A stretch of 64,000 nucleotides of DNA from Acidobacteriota bacterium (GTDB lineage: Bacteria; Acidobacteriota; Blastocatellia; UBA7656): the NCBI GenBank assembly GCA_038040445.1, contig JBBPIG010000009.1:104214-168213 (forward strand), written 5' to 3'. Every line of letters begins with the position of its first letter. Positions within the stretch are counted from its first letter, which is position 1. The notes beneath the pieces are model-generated. The model was not told the DNA's origin and made no database searches. It saw nothing but the letters and a program-made list of their open reading frames with translations. Position numbers and translations under genes: made by a program. Below, one piece after another: positions 6,158 through 64,000 of this stretch.

Positions 6158-6190
6158 ATGCGGGACTAGCCACGAAGGCACAGGCGGGAC

Positions 6191-6298
6191 TAACCACAAA
6201 AGCACAAAGACACAAAGGAAATGCTCTATATTGAGAACGAATTTAGCGAAACCTTTCTCGTTCCTGTCCGGCTTAGTGTCTTTGTGCCTTTGTGGTTA
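6191..6298. repeat. CACAAAG-type palindromic intergenic repeat
   Basis: The left arm (6191-6218) contains TAACCACAAAAGCACAAAG. The right arm (about 6272-6298) is nearly its reverse complement. The loop is about 50 bases. The element fills the gap between the TetR gene and the crotonase gene. The same words return at 43616-43687. Confidence 0.75.
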
Positions 6299-6333
6299 AT
6301 TCTGTGTCGTGGTTAAGTTGATGGAGAGAATTC

Positions 6334-7137
6334 ATGACTAGAGAAGCGATGGAAAACAAGCTGGTCAACTACAGCATTCAGAACGGCGTTGCGATCATCG
6401 AACTGCACGACCCGCCCGCGAACACCTATACCTACGAGATGATGCGCGATCTGGACGACGCGATCCTCGAAGCCAGGCTCGACGAGGACGTGCATGTGGT
6501 TGTGATTCGGGGGGCGGGTGACAAGTTTTTCTGCGCGGGCGCGAACATCAAGATGCTGTTGTCGGCAACGGCACAGTTCCGTTACTTCTTCAGCTTGCAC
6601 GGCAACGAAACCCTGATGCGAATGGAGAACACCGCGAAGCTGATCATCGCCGCGATCAACGGCCATGCGGTCGGCGGCGGGCTCGAGATCGCGCTGGCTT
6701 GCGACGTGCGCATCGCGAAGAAGGGGCCGGGGATGCTCGGGTTGCCTGAGATTAATCTCGGTTTGTTGCCGGGAATGGGCGGGACGCAGAGGCTGCCGAG
6801 AATCATCGGAAAGGCGAAAGGCCTGGAGCTTCTTGCGACGGGACGCACGATCTCAGTCGAAGAAGCTCACGAGATTGGGCTGGTGAACCACGTGTTCGAA
6901 GAGGAAAACTTTTTTGAGAAGGTCCTCGAATACGCGCGGCAGTTTGTAGCACCGGCAAAGGCCAGCAAGGCTGTCGGACTGATCAAGCGCTCAGTCCAAA
7001 CAGGGTTTGAGGTGCCGCAGGCTGAAGCGTTGGCGCTCGAACGCGAGCTGTTGCAACAACTGTTTGAGAGTGAGGATGCCCAGGAAGGGCTAGACGCCTA
7101 CGCGAAGAAGCGGCAGGCGCAGTTTAAGGGGAAATAG
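6334..7137 (+). CDS. Enoyl-CoA hydratase/isomerase (crotonase) family
   Basis: This 267-residue crotonase most likely hydrates trans-2-enoyl-CoA. Both glutamates that activate water in the classic enzyme are in place: Glu118 in VGGGLEIALACD and Glu139 in GLPEINLGLLPG. The oxyanion-hole segment CAGANIKML is also present. The start is supported by GGAGAG six bases upstream of the ATG. It is the first enzyme gene after the TetR regulator and is followed by an aldehyde dehydrogenase. The exact substrate cannot be read from the sequence. Confidence 0.88.
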   Translation: MTREAMENKLVNYSIQNGVAIIELHDPPANTYTYEMMRDLDDAILEARLDEDVHVVVIRGAGDKFFCAGANIKMLLSATAQFRYFFSLHGNETLMRMENTAKLIIAAINGHAVGGGLEIALACDVRIAKKGPGMLGLPEINLGLLPGMGGTQRLPRIIGKAKGLELLATGRTISVEEAHEIGLVNHVFEEENFFEKVLEYARQFVAPAKASKAVGLIKRSVQTGFEVPQAEALALERELLQQLFESEDAQEGLDAYAKKRQAQFKGK

Positions 7138-7143
7138 TTATTA

Positions 7144-7227
7144 GTCCGAGTTCAGAGTTCAAGCTTTAGCTTGCGTTCCTTCAAAGGATCAGAACCGCAA
7201 GCTAAAGCTTGAACTCTGAACTCGGAC
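7144..7227. repeat. Perfect 32-bp inverted repeat
   Basis: Arm 7144-7175 and arm 7196-7227 are exact reverse complements over 32 bases, with a 20-base loop. The arms contain TTCAGAGTTCAAGCTTTAGC. The element ends about 20 bases before the start of the aldehyde dehydrogenase gene and just before its ribosome-binding site. A related element lies at 38070-38133. Confidence 0.9.
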
Positions 7228-7247
7228 CAAATCGGGAGGAATAATAG

Positions 7248-8693
7248 ATGGCGAAGATGTTCATAGCAGGAGAATCGGTCGATGCGATCAGCGGCGCGAC
7301 CTATCAAGTACACAATCCAGCCAACGGCGAAGCTGTAGACACCGCTCCGAAAGGCGCCGAAGAGGATGCGCGCCGAGCGATCGACGCAGCCGAGGCGGCT
7401 TTTGAAGAATGGTCGCACACGTCGGCAGAAGATCGCGGCAAGCTTCTCTTCAAGGCCGCGGAACTCGTAGTAGCCGAGCGCAAGAGCCTGGCGGAATTGC
7501 TGTGCCGGGAGCAGGGTAAGCCGTTTCAGGAAGCGAGCGGCGAGCTCGAGCACTTCGATCACGGCTTGCACTTCTACGCGGGACTCGCTTCGAAGGTGCG
7601 CGGCGCACACGTCCCGCTACCGGCTAAGAACGCTTATGGCATGGTGGTACACAAGCCGCTCGGCGTGTGCGGCGCGATCGTGCCATGGAATTTTCCGCTC
7701 ACTTTGATGGGCACCAAGGTCGGGCCGGCGCTCGCGGCTGGGAATACTGTTGTCGTTAAGCCCGCTTCGACGACACCGCTTACGACGATTCGCATCATCG
7801 AGTTGATGAACCAGGCCGGCATTCCGAAAGGTGTGTTGAATGTCATCACCGGACCGGGCGGCGTTGTCGGCGAGGAGTTGCTGAAGAACCCAAAGGTGCG
7901 GCGCATCGCGTTCACCGGAGAATCTGCGACTGGCAAGCACGTTGCTGAGGTTGCTTGCGGAGACTTCAAACGGGTGACGCTCGAGCTCGGCGGATCAGAT
8001 CCGATGATCGTCTGCGACGACGCCGATATTCAAAAGGCGATAACCGGCGCGATGGTTGGCCGCTTTTGGAATGCGGGTCAGGCGTGTCTTGCGGTGAAGA
8101 GGCTTTACATATTCGACAAGGTCTTCGATGAATTCGTCCAGGGACTGACGAGCAAGGTCGCGCGCTACGAAGTCGGCGACGGTATGACTAAAGCCGAGAA
8201 GCCGAAGATTCGAATGGGTCCGCTGCACACGGCGGCGCAGCGCGAAGAGATCGAATCACAGGTCAAAGACGCAATCGATCGCGGCGCGAAGGTGCTGCTC
8301 GGCGGCGCGCGACCTGAAGGCGCCCAGTACGAGAAAGGTCATTACTATCTGCCGACGATTCTTGTAGACGTTCCCGATGACGCGCGAGCTGTGCAGGAGG
8401 AAACATTTGGGCCGGTGCTGCCGATCTTCCGAGTGAGCAGCCTCGATGACGCGCTTCAACGCGCGAACGCGTCGATCTACGGGCTGGGTTCGTCGATCTG
8501 GACCAAGAACCTGGACAACATTGAAACGGCGATCGATAAGCTTCAAGCGGGGAACGTGTGGGTGAACTCGCTGCATTATGGCTACGATGAGCTGCCGTTT
8601 GGTGGTGTGAAGGCGAGCGGCTTCGGTCGTGAGCATGGACCTGAGGCGCTTGATTATTATCTGGAGCCTAAGGGTGTGGTTATTACGCGTTAA
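7248..8693 (+). CDS. NAD(P)-dependent aldehyde dehydrogenase
   Basis: A 481-residue member of the aldehyde dehydrogenase superfamily, which oxidises aldehydes to acids through a cysteine thioester. The general-base Glu246 (VTLELGGSDP) and catalytic Cys280 (WNAGQACLAVKR) are present, with the cofactor-loop motif IVPWNFP near residue 145. The overall form is closest to succinate-semialdehyde or general aliphatic dehydrogenases. The ATG follows a good GGGAGG site. The gene at 9986 is a close paralogue with its catalytic residues at the same positions. Both sit with crotonases under the TetR gene. Confidence 0.9.
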   Translation: MAKMFIAGESVDAISGATYQVHNPANGEAVDTAPKGAEEDARRAIDAAEAAFEEWSHTSAEDRGKLLFKAAELVVAERKSLAELLCREQGKPFQEASGELEHFDHGLHFYAGLASKVRGAHVPLPAKNAYGMVVHKPLGVCGAIVPWNFPLTLMGTKVGPALAAGNTVVVKPASTTPLTTIRIIELMNQAGIPKGVLNVITGPGGVVGEELLKNPKVRRIAFTGESATGKHVAEVACGDFKRVTLELGGSDPMIVCDDADIQKAITGAMVGRFWNAGQACLAVKRLYIFDKVFDEFVQGLTSKVARYEVGDGMTKAEKPKIRMGPLHTAAQREEIESQVKDAIDRGAKVLLGGARPEGAQYEKGHYYLPTILVDVPDDARAVQEETFGPVLPIFRVSSLDDALQRANASIYGLGSSIWTKNLDNIETAIDKLQAGNVWVNSLHYGYDELPFGGVKASGFGREHGPEALDYYLEPKGVVITR

Positions 8694-52105: not shown

Positions 52106-54286
52106 ATGAAGCGCACGATGTTTGTTCTGGTTGTTTCGCTCTCGGTTTGCATAGCGGCGCTCGCGCAGCAGAAGCGAGCTATGACCTTCGAAGACGTTCT
52201 CGCAACGAAGAGCGTTTCCGATGCGCAAGTCTCGCCCGATGGCAAGTGGGTCGCTTACGTCGTCACCTCTGTCGATATGAAAGAAAACGCCAACGACGCC
52301 GACATCTGGTTGGTTTCGACTGCGGGAGGCGGTACCCTTCGGCTCACTACAAACAAGAAGAACGACACCCAACCTCGTTGGTCGCCTGATGGGAAGCGCA
52401 TTGCGTTCATCTCGGCTCGCGAAGAGAAGCCGCAGATCTTCTTGATCTCGCCCTTTGGCGGCGAAGCCGAGAAGCTCACCGACTCGAAGTCCGGTGCGCA
52501 ATCCCTTCAATGGTCGCCCGATGGAAACCGCATCGCTTACGTTGCTCAGCAGGAGCTCACCCCCGACGAAGAGAAGAAACAGAAAGAGAAAGACGACGCG
52601 CAAGTGGTGGACAAGAATTTCAAGTTCTCGCGCATCTGGGTCATCGACGTGAGCACCAAGAAGGCCAGCGAGCTGGTTAAGGGCGACTACAACGCCGGCG
52701 ATCCACAGTGGTCGCCGAACGGCAGCTCGCTCGCGTTTGTCACAAACCCGACGCCCAAAGCCGACGATGGCAGCCGGTCAGATATCTGGGTGATCGATGT
52801 GGCGACCGCTGCGAGCGCCGACGTGGGTGTCTTCCAGAAGAAGCTCGCGGCGCTTACAGAGACGCTTGCGGGTTTGGAAACGACCTTCGGGCCCAACAAC
52901 CCGCGAATCATGGAAGCTCGCGCCCAGATTGAATCCGTGCGGAAAGAAATGAATCAGAAGCTCGGGCTGCGAAAGCTGGTCGACAACGAAGGCCCGGACA
53001 GCGCGCCGCGATGGTCTCCCGATGGCCGGCAGATCGCTTTTTCGAGCCGCGATTCGAAGAACGGGGAGATCGGCCAGCAGAGACTGATGATCGTTGGCTC
53101 GGAGGGCGGGACACCTCGCGAGGTCGCGCCCCGATTTGAATATCAACCGGGTCCGCCGAAATGGTCAGCGGATGGCCGAACCATCTACTTCAATGCCGGC
53201 GTGCGAACAACCAGCCAGTTGTTCTCGGCGCCGGCAGCCGGGGGCGAAGCGAAGCAGGTTTCGAACAACGCCGGTGTGATGGGTCAAGCAACGTTTTCGC
53301 GCGACGGATCGGTGGCAGCTTTCACGAAGTCCGACACGCAACACGCCGATGATGTTTACGTAGCGAAGTCTCTTCCTATCGCTGAACCGACCAAGCTCAC
53401 CGATCACAATCCGCAGGTGCGAGAGTTGACACTCGGCGCCAGCGAGGTGGTTCGTTGGAAGGGCAAGGACGGCATGGAGATCGAAGGCATCGTGATCTAC
53501 CCGGCCGGCTATCAACAGGGCAAGCGTTATCCAACCGTCGCGTTGATCCACGGCGGTCCTGCCGGTGTATGGACGCAGAGCTTTCCAAGTTCGTGGAGTA
53601 ACTTTGGGCACGTATGGGCAGCCCAGGGGTGGGTCGCTTTTTATCCGAACATCCGCGGGTCGTCTTCATACGGCGAGAAGTTCCTGCTTGCGAATGTGCG
53701 TGATTGGGGCGGAGGCGACTATCAGGACATTCAAACCGGACTCGATCACTTGATCGCCAAAGGAGTCGCTGATCCGGATAGGCTGGGGCAGGCAGGCTGG
53801 AGCTACGGCGGATACATGACGGCGTGGACCTTAACTCAGACCGATCGTTTCAAAGCGGTGATGGTTGGAGCGGGTCTGACGAATATGTACTCGATGTACT
53901 CGACGAACGATTTACAGCGCATTCTGGAGGCTTACTTCGGCGGGCAACCGTGGGATGACACAGAATTCTACTGGAAGAGGTCGGCGATGGCTTTCATCAA
54001 AAAGGCGAAGACGCCGACGCTGATCTTGCACGGAGGCTCCGACACGCGCGTGCCGCCGAGCCAGGCTCAAGAGCTATACATGGGGCTTCGCAAGAACGGT
54101 GTTCCTGTCGAGATGGTGCTCTTCCCGCGCGAGCCTCACGGACTCGGAGAGCCGCGTCATCGCCTGGACAAAATGCGCCGCGAGTATGCGTGGTTCTCAC
54201 GGTATGTGCTCGGGGTTGAAGTGCCCGAGCCCAAACCAGCAAAGGACGAGAAGAAGTCAGAAGAGAAGCCTTCGCAGAATCAATAG
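52106..54286 (+). CDS. Secreted S9 prolyl-oligopeptidase family protein with an insertion
   Basis: A 726-residue serine peptidase. A signal peptide (1-20) precedes a beta-propeller with repeated WSPDG motifs (about 25-400). The C-terminal alpha/beta hydrolase domain has the triad Ser566 (GWSYGGYMTAW), Asp646 (GGSDTRVPPSQ) and His678 (REPHGLGEP). An unusual helical segment, about residues 236-287, is inserted in the propeller; TFGPNNPRIMEARAQIESV in it resembles a piece of a chain-length-determinant (Wzz/GumC) protein. It probably degrades peptides outside the inner membrane. Confidence 0.9.
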   Translation: MKRTMFVLVVSLSVCIAALAQQKRAMTFEDVLATKSVSDAQVSPDGKWVAYVVTSVDMKENANDADIWLVSTAGGGTLRLTTNKKNDTQPRWSPDGKRIAFISAREEKPQIFLISPFGGEAEKLTDSKSGAQSLQWSPDGNRIAYVAQQELTPDEEKKQKEKDDAQVVDKNFKFSRIWVIDVSTKKASELVKGDYNAGDPQWSPNGSSLAFVTNPTPKADDGSRSDIWVIDVATAASADVGVFQKKLAALTETLAGLETTFGPNNPRIMEARAQIESVRKEMNQKLGLRKLVDNEGPDSAPRWSPDGRQIAFSSRDSKNGEIGQQRLMIVGSEGGTPREVAPRFEYQPGPPKWSADGRTIYFNAGVRTTSQLFSAPAAGGEAKQVSNNAGVMGQATFSRDGSVAAFTKSDTQHADDVYVAKSLPIAEPTKLTDHNPQVRELTLGASEVVRWKGKDGMEIEGIVIYPAGYQQGKRYPTVALIHGGPAGVWTQSFPSSWSNFGHVWAAQGWVAFYPNIRGSSSYGEKFLLANVRDWGGGDYQDIQTGLDHLIAKGVADPDRLGQAGWSYGGYMTAWTLTQTDRFKAVMVGAGLTNMYSMYSTNDLQRILEAYFGGQPWDDTEFYWKRSAMAFIKKAKTPTLILHGGSDTRVPPSQAQELYMGLRKNGVPVEMVLFPREPHGLGEPRHRLDKMRREYAWFSRYVLGVEVPEPKPAKDEKKSEEKPSQNQ

Positions 54287-61117: not shown

Positions 61118-62662
61118 ATGGCCAATAAGAAAAAAGAATGGTTAGTGATGATCTACTTGTCCGCCGATAACGACCTGTCAGAAGAAGCGGTCTGGTCTCT
61201 ACTGGAAGTCCTTCGGGCCGGCCCAAGTGACGAAGTCGGAGTGGTTGTACAGATCGACCCCAGATTCGAGGGTATACGACGGTTCGACTTGGCCAAGCTT
61301 TTCGTGGGGGAAGGAAAGAAATTGCGGTCTAACGTTGCGGCCCATCGTGATCAGGTCCGCAGTAAACTGCTCTCACGCGGGCGGCGAGTCCGTGCTCGAG
61401 ACAATATGGCGACCGTCAAGGCGCTCACGGAGTTCATAATCGAAAGCAAGAGGCCGCCCAATGAGGCGAACCGCCACTTGTTGATATTGTCCGGTCACGG
61501 CGGCGGCCCAACCGGCAGCTCTTTTCTGGTAGATCAGTTTCCAGCGCAGGGGGTCAGCATGAGGGGTGTTAGAAAGGCAATCAGGAAGGCGCGCGGAGTG
61601 GATGTTGTAGGAATGGACTCTTGCGGGATGGGGATGGCAGAGATCGGAAATCAGTTGAGCGACTGCGCGGAATTTCTCGTCGCTTCTGAAGGCTTCGAGT
61701 TGAATACCGGTTGGCCTTATTTTCCGATCATTGAGGCACTGAAAAAGAACCCGGAGATGGATGCTCGAACCCTGGCGGCCACAGTCGTCCAGATCCACAC
61801 AGACTATTATTCAAACTATCTGATGGCGGGAGTTTCGACGGACATGGCTGCTTGCGATCTCAAGAAAGCGCCGGACCTCACCTCTAGCATTCAAGAGTTG
61901 GCGCGGGAATTAACCGGAAATCTCCTGCTGCGACAAAGGTTCTCACACAAAGCCGACTCACCCCGTGATAAAAGAGTCTTCGTTGAGGATTTGCGGCTCG
62001 CCAAGCGTTCCGTCGCCGATGCGATCATCCTCGCCCACTGGAGGGCGCAGTCCTATCGGTTTGAGCGCCACACCGACCTCTACGACTTTTGCGACCTTCT
62101 CGATGACGGATGTCGGGACGAAGGCGTTAGCGAGGCATGTAAAAAGGTCAAGTCTATTATCAAAGGAAAGAAAACCGATGACGGTACATACGACGGGTAC
62201 GTCATTAAGTCCTGCCACAGCGGTGTCATGTTTCAGCACTCGCATGGAGTTGCTGTGTATTTCCCGTGGGCGGCAGTCGACAAGGATTATAGTGAGCTTA
62301 GACTATCGCGGAAGGCCGGCTGGGATCTTTTCCTGAAGGCTTATGTGAGAAGAACGCGGCGGCGTCCTCGAGATGACTCTGGCGTAGTTGAACTAGTCGC
62401 GCAAGCGGATGATAGTGCAAGTGCCATGCGCGATTTTCCGGAACTCGGCACCAAGGATTTCCCGGAACTCGGCACCAAGGATTTCCCGGAACTAAGCACC
62501 AAGGATTTCCCGGAACTAGGCACCAGGGATTTTCCGGAGTTAGGTACAAAGGACTTTCCGGAGTTGGGTACGAAGGATTTCCCGGAACTGGGCACCAAAG
62601 GGAAAGTGCTCATTCCTGAAATGAAGAATCCACCGGATATCTTCTTTAAAGACCCATGCTGA
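61118..62662 (+). CDS. Clostripain-family (C11) cysteine protease with C-terminal octapeptide repeats
   Basis: A 514-residue protein. It opens like C11 peptidases (WLVMIYLSADNDLSEEA). The catalytic dyad is His127 (LILSGHGGG) and Cys169 (GMDSCGMGMAEIG), a caspase-like clan CD arrangement. A cutting preference after basic residues is usual in the family. Residues 439-494 are seven copies of the octapeptide DFPELGTK, with Ser, Arg or Gly at single places. There is no signal peptide. The ATG at 61118 follows GGTGGGAG. The stop overlaps the start of the next gene, a TPR protein, by seven bases, so the two products are likely made together. Confidence 0.9.
   Translation: MANKKKEWLVMIYLSADNDLSEEAVWSLLEVLRAGPSDEVGVVVQIDPRFEGIRRFDLAKLFVGEGKKLRSNVAAHRDQVRSKLLSRGRRVRARDNMATVKALTEFIIESKRPPNEANRHLLILSGHGGGPTGSSFLVDQFPAQGVSMRGVRKAIRKARGVDVVGMDSCGMGMAEIGNQLSDCAEFLVASEGFELNTGWPYFPIIEALKKNPEMDARTLAATVVQIHTDYYSNYLMAGVSTDMAACDLKKAPDLTSSIQELARELTGNLLLRQRFSHKADSPRDKRVFVEDLRLAKRSVADAIILAHWRAQSYRFERHTDLYDFCDLLDDGCRDEGVSEACKKVKSIIKGKKTDDGTYDGYVIKSCHSGVMFQHSHGVAVYFPWAAVDKDYSELRLSRKAGWDLFLKAYVRRTRRRPRDDSGVVELVAQADDSASAMRDFPELGTKDFPELGTKDFPELSTKDFPELGTRDFPELGTKDFPELGTKDFPELGTKGKVLIPEMKNPPDIFFKDPC
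62432..62602. repeat. Seven 24-base tandem repeats encoding DFPELGT
   Basis: Each unit encodes DFPELGTK or a close variant. The first four units and the last share GATTTCCCGGAACT-like codons, while units five and six use GGAGTTAGGTAC-like codons. Protein identity is kept although the DNA differs, which argues for selection on the peptide. Confidence 0.9.
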
Positions 62663-64000
62663 GACGAACACTCGCCGCAATTGCAGTGCTCTCACTGTTG
62701 TCGGAAACGTCAATTGGCTGTTGCTTGTTCTCTAGCGACAGTTTTGTCCTGACCGCCATGAAGGCGGCCCGTCGAAGCGTATTCCACAGCCTTACGCACC
62801 GGACGCCGCGGAAACAAGCGGCAACCGCACGGCATGAGATAAGAATCAATGGGGCGAGGCGGTCCACGGAAAGAGAGGGGCGCCGAATCGCAGCGGAGAG
62901 GCTTTCCGCGGAGGGAGCCCGACTCCGTGCCGAGGGAACGGCGAAGTCCGCTCGAATAGCCATCAGCAAGTATGAGCAGTCTCTGCCATTTTGGCGGGCG
63001 GCCATCGACAAACGCGGGGAGACCCGCGCCTTGATGTACATCGGCGAGATATATCATACGCTCGGCGAGCCGAAGAAAGCGCTCGAGTACTACAACCGCG
63101 TCTTACTGCTCAGCCAGGAGGCGGATGATCGCCAGTTAGAATGCGAAGTGCTTAACGATATTGGGTATGTTCAAATCCATCTCGGTGAGACTCAGAAAAC
63201 CCTCGAGTATTGCACAAGAGCCCTCAAGCTGAGTCAGAACATCGGTGATGCAACGAGCGAAGCGCGGGCGCTCAACAACATTGGAGGGGCTTACTACGCG
63301 ATCGGCAGCCGACAGAAAGCGCTCGCCTATTACCAGCAGGCATTACCCATTTGGCGTTCTCAGAACAATCCCGCGGGCCAGGCGCAGACGCTATTGAATT
63401 TCGCTAATGTTTACTCTGACCTTAGCAATACAGGGCAAGCGTTGGAGTACTACGCGCAGGCGCTTTCATTTTGGCGCGCTGTGAAGGACAAGAGAGGCGA
63501 AGCCAGCACGCTTACGGCGATGGGACACCTTCATTCCAGGGTAGGTAAGAAGCAAGAGGCGCTCGATCTTTACGAGCAGGCGAGACATCTTATCCAGTTG
63601 GTGGGAGATCGAGTTGAAGAAGCGAGGATACTGAACGGCCTCGCTTATGTTTACAAGGAACTGGGTGAATTGGAAAGCGCTCTCGGGTATTACAATCAAG
63701 CATTAAGTCTCTTTCAAGCTACAAACTACAAACGTGGACAAGCCGGATCACTGATTGTAATTGGCGGCCTCTACTACTCAAAGGGAGACTATCAGAAAGC
63801 TCTCAACAGTTTTCAGCAGGCGTTGTTGAGGGTTCGGGAATTGAAGGACAGACACTACGAAGCTTACGCGCTCAGGAGTATCGCCGCGCTCTATGATTCC
63901 CTCGGAAACAAGAGGCAAGCCCTCGACTACTACAAGCAAGCCCTTCTGTTGCACGACAGCTTGGGCGATCGGCGGGGCGAAGCATATGCGCTCAACGGCG
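62656..64000 (+). CDS. TPR-repeat protein, partial at window edge (possible CHAT protease)
   Basis: The frame is open to the window end (448 codons so far). It begins with a hydrophobic stretch (LAAIAVLSLLSETSIG), perhaps a signal or lipoprotein sequence. A charged helix rich in Arg and Glu follows, then KYEQSLPFWRA and at least eight TPR units of about 40 residues with a common pattern such as LGEPKKALEYYNRVL and ALNNIGGAYYAIG. Proteins of this style often end in a CHAT caspase-like domain; that part is outside the window. It overlaps the C11 protease gene by seven bases. Confidence 0.85.
   Translation, partial: MLRRTLAAIAVLSLLSETSIGCCLFSSDSFVLTAMKAARRSVFHSLTHRTPRKQAATARHEIRINGARRSTEREGRRIAAERLSAEGARLRAEGTAKSARIAISKYEQSLPFWRAAIDKRGETRALMYIGEIYHTLGEPKKALEYYNRVLLLSQEADDRQLECEVLNDIGYVQIHLGETQKTLEYCTRALKLSQNIGDATSEARALNNIGGAYYAIGSRQKALAYYQQALPIWRSQNNPAGQAQTLLNFANVYSDLSNTGQALEYYAQALSFWRAVKDKRGEASTLTAMGHLHSRVGKKQEALDLYEQARHLIQLVGDRVEEARILNGLAYVYKELGELESALGYYNQALSLFQATNYKRGQAGSLIVIGGLYYSKGDYQKALNSFQQALLRVRELKDRHYEAYALRSIAALYDSLGNKRQALDYYKQALLLHDSLGDRRGEAYALNG

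Follow-up and report, generated by a model that had tools for sequence, protein, structure and literature searches.

Why would a protease end in seven near-identical copies of one short peptide, and what might these copies have to do with the TPR protein whose gene overlaps its own? This question is raised by a clostripain-family (C11) gene in the window analysed here, by which we mean the whole stretch of 64,000 nucleotides (G000:C9:104214-168213). The product has 514 aa, and its features and those of the adjacent genes are collected in Table 1. A first-pass annotation had suggested that the repeats are the ligand of the TPR protein, giving a multivalent complex of two proteases that might act as a stress- or phage-triggered cascade.

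Table 1. Features of the C11 locus (positions in the window, + strand, unless L002 is given).
Feature	Position	Strand	Basis or remark
C11 (clostripain-family) cysteine protease	61118..62662	+	Pfam PF03415; AF2/Foldseek; without signal peptide
Catalytic His127 (SGHGGG)	61496..61498	+	almost invariant in A1, invariant in A2
Asp167-Ser168-Cys169 (DSCGM), S1 Asp and catalytic Cys	61616..61624	+	Cys invariant
Peptide array DFPELGTK x7, residues 439-494	62432..62599	+	Tandem Repeats Finder; pN/pS; AF2
Conserved motif KNPPDIFF, residues 503-510, after array	62624..62647	+	homologues; AF2
TPR-CHAT protease, first 448 of 1087 aa in window	62656..64000	+	TPR families; CHAT profile
Sigma factor	L002 about 6185-6808		downstream of TPR-CHAT
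Anti-sigma	L002 about 6816-7802		downstream of sigma gene

The protease belongs to the C11 family by profile, active site and predicted fold. Its Peptidase_C11 match (Pfam PF03415) has E=2.5e-21 and 77 bits against a cut-off of 25.8, the sequence alignments show a His/Cys dyad (H127 and C169) with an S1 Asp (D167), and the AF2 model, built from 25 sequences, has a confident C11 fold that retrieves 9cip, 6mzo and 6nag in Foldseek (E about 3e-12 to 5e-12). It is not clostripain sensu stricto, scoring 25.6 bits on TIGR02806, below the equivalog cut-off of 550 bits. Translation starts at ATG 61118, GTG 61106 being possible too; since the open frame upstream of this ATG adds just 7 residues, a signal peptide is impossible. 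D167, two residues ahead of the catalytic Cys, corresponds to PmC11 Asp177, through which the S1 site accommodates Lys/Arg (PMC4850288). Enzymes of the C11 family take Lys or Arg in P1 and process themselves, and by analogy with PmC11 the window C11 would be expected to cleave after Lys/Arg and to activate itself (PMC4850288).

Tandem Repeats Finder recovered the octapeptides as 24 bp x 7.0 copies at 62432-62598, in the order DFPELGTK x2, DFPELSTK, DFPELGTR and DFPELGTK x3; thus six copies read DFPELGT and one DFPELST, with a trailing K in six and R in one. A degenerate DFPELGT pattern gave 6 exact matches in the window and 0 in shuffles, and within the 6.75-Mb genome it occurs solely at this gene. 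No comparable array was present among 338 ORFs of the source genome in a control scan, and 464 kb of that genome held, besides the array, only few low-complexity or short, degenerate stretches. The array is disordered in the AF2 model (pLDDT 33-43, about 35), and the motif that follows it scores higher (62-69). A second AF2 model, of the C11 at locus L080, also has a disordered array (pLDDT about 30) and a weak C-terminal end; in neither model was the array docked on the catalytic domain with confidence.

Tandem peptide arrays were found in about 40 C11 homologues, as the first-pass annotation had expected of homologous proteases, but DFPELGT itself was absent and the unit differs by lineage. 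Therefore, DFPELGT is not a conserved ligand, and we rejected it as a widespread motif: it is confined to a single protein of its genome, and no homologue had the same unit. The homologous arrays take the same position, ahead of a KN-containing C-terminal motif that lies downstream of the array in most homologues (N504 is almost invariant in A2); at L089 the array is internal, upstream of conserved C11 blocks. Their units include RFTPPWS, YVPPY[ST][KR], NGDANK, NGDINK, TQDSKLAG, SGALEPSDKS, LGGSGSSTK, [IL]AGQEG[ST][KR], LGTGQGR, AGQGNPEK, EGGPYSGK, VPPYDVDNK, NPVFRVEG, DGLPFTK, RMMTD, REVGG and WNKDNPH, among others. Units are common to close relatives only and usually differ below roughly 65% identity of the catalytic domain. 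The 91%-identical C11s of L138 and L139 mix YPPYGRPGDR and VPPYDVDNK types in different copy numbers, and were apparently caught in the middle of unit replacement. Three paralogues of one genome (L043, L056 and L058 of G016) have different arrays or none; the unit thus goes with the individual protein rather than with the genome.

Two further patterns were observed among the arrays. A PP[YW] core recurs in distant ones (YVPPYSK, FTPPWSR, VPPYDVDNK, NNPPWSK and FTPPYVK at L040, L042, L138, L152 and L159), and is either ancestral or convergent. A C11 subclade has long arrays of 5-12 copies ([IL]AGQEGSK-like, LGGSGSSTK, LGTGQGR), and TPR-CHAT was not seen alongside its members (L071, L073, L080, L081, L083, L086, L049, L050, L056, L122, L127 and L128); the C11s of L071, L080 and L086 lie directly after a large gene, whose product in L071 is a Ser/Thr kinase that also has a WD40-like domain.

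The array peptide is under selection at the peptide level, over the whole unit. Within the DFPELGTK array pS is 0.69 and pN 0.041, which confirms that the peptide is conserved while its codons vary. The same holds for all 34 arrays with three or more copies, each of which has pN below pS (means 0.024 and 0.56), and codon choice among copies comes on average to 67% of what random codons would give, with complete randomisation in several arrays; this supports the selection suspected in the first-pass annotation. Scrambled arrays may be over-represented in this sample, because short-read assembly breaks off at arrays whose codons vary little; the contigs of L045, L046 and L083 stop within their arrays. 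In one pair of relatives that are 62% identical, NGDANK x4 stands against NGDINK x4, one residue being changed in every copy. Peptide repeats of at least 2.8 copies occur in 36 of 79 C11 ORFs and in 4 of 441 other ORFs of the same loci.

The ATG of the TPR gene (62656) and the end of the C11 stop codon (62662) give the 7-base overlap that had been noted before. Read beyond the end of the window (L002:2870-6133, that is C9:166869-170132), the gene does end, as had been supposed, in a CHAT domain (residues 747-1084, E=1.1e-70) with HFATHG (His) and SACQTG (Cys) motifs; together with its TPR array (TPR_12, 2.9e-57), this makes it a TPR-CHAT protein. The start of the sigma-factor gene in the source genome is uncertain because homology reaches upstream of the first ATG/GTG/TTG; this gene (L002:6185-6808) may use a rare start codon.

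C11 homologues were present in 52 of 162 classmate genomes. The 31 loci with organism names, obtained by an alignment-based search of genome contigs, are mainly from Acidobacteriota (Pyrinomonadaceae, Blastocatellia, Chloracidobacterium) and also include Thermoanaerobaculia, one Planctomycetota and one Atribacteria locus, the latter without an array; a search of genome contigs with a single protein found none. A TPR-CHAT gene adjoins the C11 on the same strand at about 45 distinct loci, mostly within a few hundred bases, and this pairing recurs across Acidobacteriota. By hand count, 37 distinct loci combine C11, TPR-CHAT, a sigma-70/ECF-type factor and an anti-sigma-like protein, the last two being encoded co-directionally, convergently or upstream. 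At L042, for example, the sigma factor matches ECF (1.3e-11) and the anti-sigma-like protein has a zinc-finger anti-sigma motif.

A hydrophobic N-terminal segment passed a strict threshold in 35 of 42 TPR-CHATs, and most of the others fell narrowly below it, with a C11-CHAT fusion at L172 as a clear exception. The same threshold was passed by 9 of 77 C11s, which appear to be secreted relatives without an array. Judged by hydropathy alone, TPR-CHATs look exported or membrane-anchored and array-bearing C11s do not.

Some unusual gene arrangements were also noticed. The L172 fusion (L172:3201-5951, also at L189) joins a C11-like N-terminal domain lacking SGHG and DSC to a C-terminal CHAT, a natural protease fusion. 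L161:4612-8371 has a tandem C11 pair, neither with an array, with one TPR-CHAT and one sigma/anti-sigma pair between them. Elsewhere in the window, an apparent coiled-coil-like insert (FQKKLAALTETLAGLETTFGPNNPRIMEARAQIESVRKEMNQKLG) was seen in an S9-type peptidase that has a WD40-like propeller (52106-54286).

The idea that the repeats are the ligand of the TPR protein is one form of a broader explanation, in which each unit serves as a short linear motif for binding a partner (the TPR-CHAT groove or another protein), several copies are held together and no cleavage is involved. TPRs commonly bind peptides, and such docking would agree with the conservation of the whole unit, its several identical copies and the conserved pairing of the two genes. 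However, an array is present in 17 of the 21 C11s that have no adjacent TPR-CHAT in the available sequence, which includes some short contigs, compared with 25 of 45 that have one. Arrays are therefore as common without the supposed partner as with it. Direct contact is also not obvious, because TPR-CHATs carry N-terminal export or anchor segments that array C11s lack. In addition, the units resemble nothing in their own TPR-CHAT: as mimics of a site in the anti-sigma, the sigma factor or TPR-CHAT they ranked their own partner at 0.53, 0.48 and 0.48, which is chance.

The distribution of Lys and Arg was analysed without regard to phylogeny. K/R is present in all 30 distinct units, where 21.5 were expected and the highest of 4000 composition-matched shuffles reached 27, and exactly one K/R is present in 26 of the 30 (expected 11.6); none of the other residue classes tested in the 30 units behaves like this. 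Among the 26 single-K/R units, the third residue after K/R is G/P in 19 (expected 7.6), and G/P directly follows K/R in one (expected 7.7, P 0.0008). The units thus have a common phase, [KR]xx[GP], which was found post hoc and in a test that likewise ignores phylogeny; its observed maximum over classes and positions was unmatched by any permutation. Six of the 19 variable columns within arrays are swaps between K and R. Furthermore, arrays of at least 2.8 copies occur in 33 of 50 C11s with the S1 Asp and in 2 of 10 with His at that position (Fisher p 0.012, phylogeny ignored).

Docking predicts neither one Lys/Arg per unit nor the avoidance of Gly/Pro directly after it, although Lys/Arg could serve charge-based binding instead. 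We regard docking as unlikely, while giving it more weight than the timer, bait and slippage explanations below. Because of the K/R rule, the phase, the K/R swaps and the arrays without an adjacent TPR-CHAT, we prefer cleavage after K/R, and the S1 Asp of the window C11 also counts for self-cleavage. Our tentative reading, held with less than even confidence, is that a cytosolic C11, part of a sigma-factor module, carries the array as a flexible segment with many sites for cleavage after Lys/Arg. If every unit were cut after its single Lys/Arg, with the C11 itself as the most likely enzyme, one protein would yield many copies of one lineage-specific peptide of 5-10 residues. The predicted disorder of the array in both models and the conservation of the module at 37 loci agree with this reading. 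Against it count the absence of an array from about 20 of the 45 CHAT-linked C11s, so that the module can do without one, and the failure of the units to resemble sites in the cognate catalytic domain, anti-sigma, sigma factor or TPR-CHAT better than by chance. A P1 preference by itself gives no reason for the remaining 4-9 residues to stay identical, and we therefore also invoke a specific product or recognition step. The four-gene module, with its C11, exported or membrane-anchored TPR-CHAT, sigma-70/ECF-type factor and anti-sigma-like protein, would then probably couple a proteolytic trigger to sigma-factor release, and where it is complete, the TPR domain may, speculatively, sense the released peptide.

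Cleavage might also serve a different end. The array could be a tethered pseudo-substrate that fills the active site of its own enzyme until it is consumed, so that copy number sets a delay. The K/R phasing suits such a timer, as do the placement of the array behind the catalytic domain and ahead of a conserved C-terminal motif of somewhat higher pLDDT and, at L089, its location before the conserved C11 blocks; PmC11, which is autoinhibited before self-cleavage, provides a precedent (PMC4850288). But for this purpose cleavable sites would suffice and identical 8-mers would not be required, and neither AF2 model docks the array into the active site with confidence. We consider this rather improbable. 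Mimicry of a site in the own C11 catalytic domain (e.g. the activation loop) was rejected separately, with a mean rank of 0.47, which is chance.

A bolder form of the cleavage reading would make the array a multi-copy precursor carried in cis, whose self-cleaved peptide is sensed by the exported TPR-CHAT and switches the ECF-type sigma factor, as a fast-evolving password of kin or lineage. We think it improbable that all of these steps apply together. A RiPP precursor was rejected: no modifying enzyme was recognised among the neighbours inspected, and the HaaT match of the TPR protein (148 bits) is far below the cut-off of 1125 bits.

It is also conceivable that the array is bait, cut by a foreign protease of a phage or competitor so as to trigger the system, with lineage-specific units as the trace of an arms race. 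The rapid turnover of units would fit, and caspase/CHAT systems of CRISPR defence do work via ECF sigma factors (PMC10028731). On the other hand, the loci are embedded among ordinary genes, defence neighbours are absent, PADLOC matched no anti-phage system at the locus beyond a generic TPR model, and the C11 had no viral relative; we regard bait as very unlikely. A phage or plasmid origin of the C11 was rejected as well, its four plasmid relatives being remote (<30% identity). Of the stress or phage trigger proposed in the first-pass annotation, the stress part is consistent with the sigma/anti-sigma neighbours, whereas the phage part found no such support. Finally, functionless repeats left by replication slippage in a tolerant disordered tail would explain the fast change of copy number and unit, as at L138/L139, but are strongly disfavoured by pN below pS in every array of three or more copies, by the codon scrambling and by the rarity of repeats in neighbouring ORFs, which together with the 338-ORF control rules out genome-wide slippage as the source; we give this explanation hardly any credence.

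C11, TPR-CHAT and ECF-type sigma factors are each known families. We found no published description of the array-bearing C11 or the four-gene module in the open-access literature searched, and no C11 that carries many phased copies of a peptide is known to us. Several known systems are nevertheless comparable in part. The window C11 shares fold, His/Cys dyad and S1 Asp with clostripain/C11 (PmC11, PDB 3UWS, 6MZO, 9CIP) and, by analogy, probably the Lys/Arg specificity and self-processing of characterised members. In clostripain one nonapeptide linker is cut out (PMC4850288), whereas the window C11 has a multi-copy array and lacks a signal peptide.

The arrangement of the array recalls fungal Kex2-processed repeat proteins (KEPs), with tandem peptide cores between basic cleavage sites (PMC9769878). 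Here too, tandem cores are separated by basic residues in all units, though single and not dibasic ones; KEPs are secretory precursors of eukaryotes, and the protease that cuts them is a separate protein, while here the array is bacterial, fused to the protease and without a signal peptide. Metacaspase operons of Myxococcus and other bacteria encode a caspase-like protease with sigma-70 factors (PMC3501461), but those proteases belong to C14, and neither a CHAT partner nor peptide arrays are described there.

The type III CRISPR cascade of SAVED-CHAT and PCaspase reportedly pairs a CHAT protease with a second clan CD protease. The module described here too pairs CHAT with such a protease, and the C11 model weakly matches SAVED-CHAT in Foldseek; a SAVED domain and CRISPR were not seen at the module, and we know of no counterpart of the array in that cascade.

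A precedent for the regulatory logic is the Craspase/CASP type III-E CRISPR system (Cas7-11, TPR-CHAT Csx29, Csx30 and CASP-sigma), in which the TPR-CHAT protease cleaves Csx30 and so frees an ECF-type sigma factor from inhibition (PMC10028731). Both combine TPR-CHAT, an ECF-type sigma factor and an inhibitor, and the III-E sigma model gives a weak match to a sigma factor of one module. However, no Cas7-11/gRAMP or other Cas genes were found at the locus, where the genes around TPR-CHAT encode C11, sigma, anti-sigma and unrelated proteins; the TPR-CHAT appears exported or anchored by hydropathy, the anti-sigma is a membrane-type protein and not Csx30, and the module adds a second protease, the C11, with a peptide array. 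Peptides that stay nearly identical within one protein although their codons are scrambled, and that are exchanged entirely from one lineage to the next, point strongly, and in an unusual way, to selection acting on a short repeated sequence. If the reader or cutter of this peptide were identified, protease-controlled signalling of a new type would be defined in a phylum that is large and little studied, and the TPR-CHAT/sigma-factor logic of type III-E CRISPR would gain a design with a second protease.
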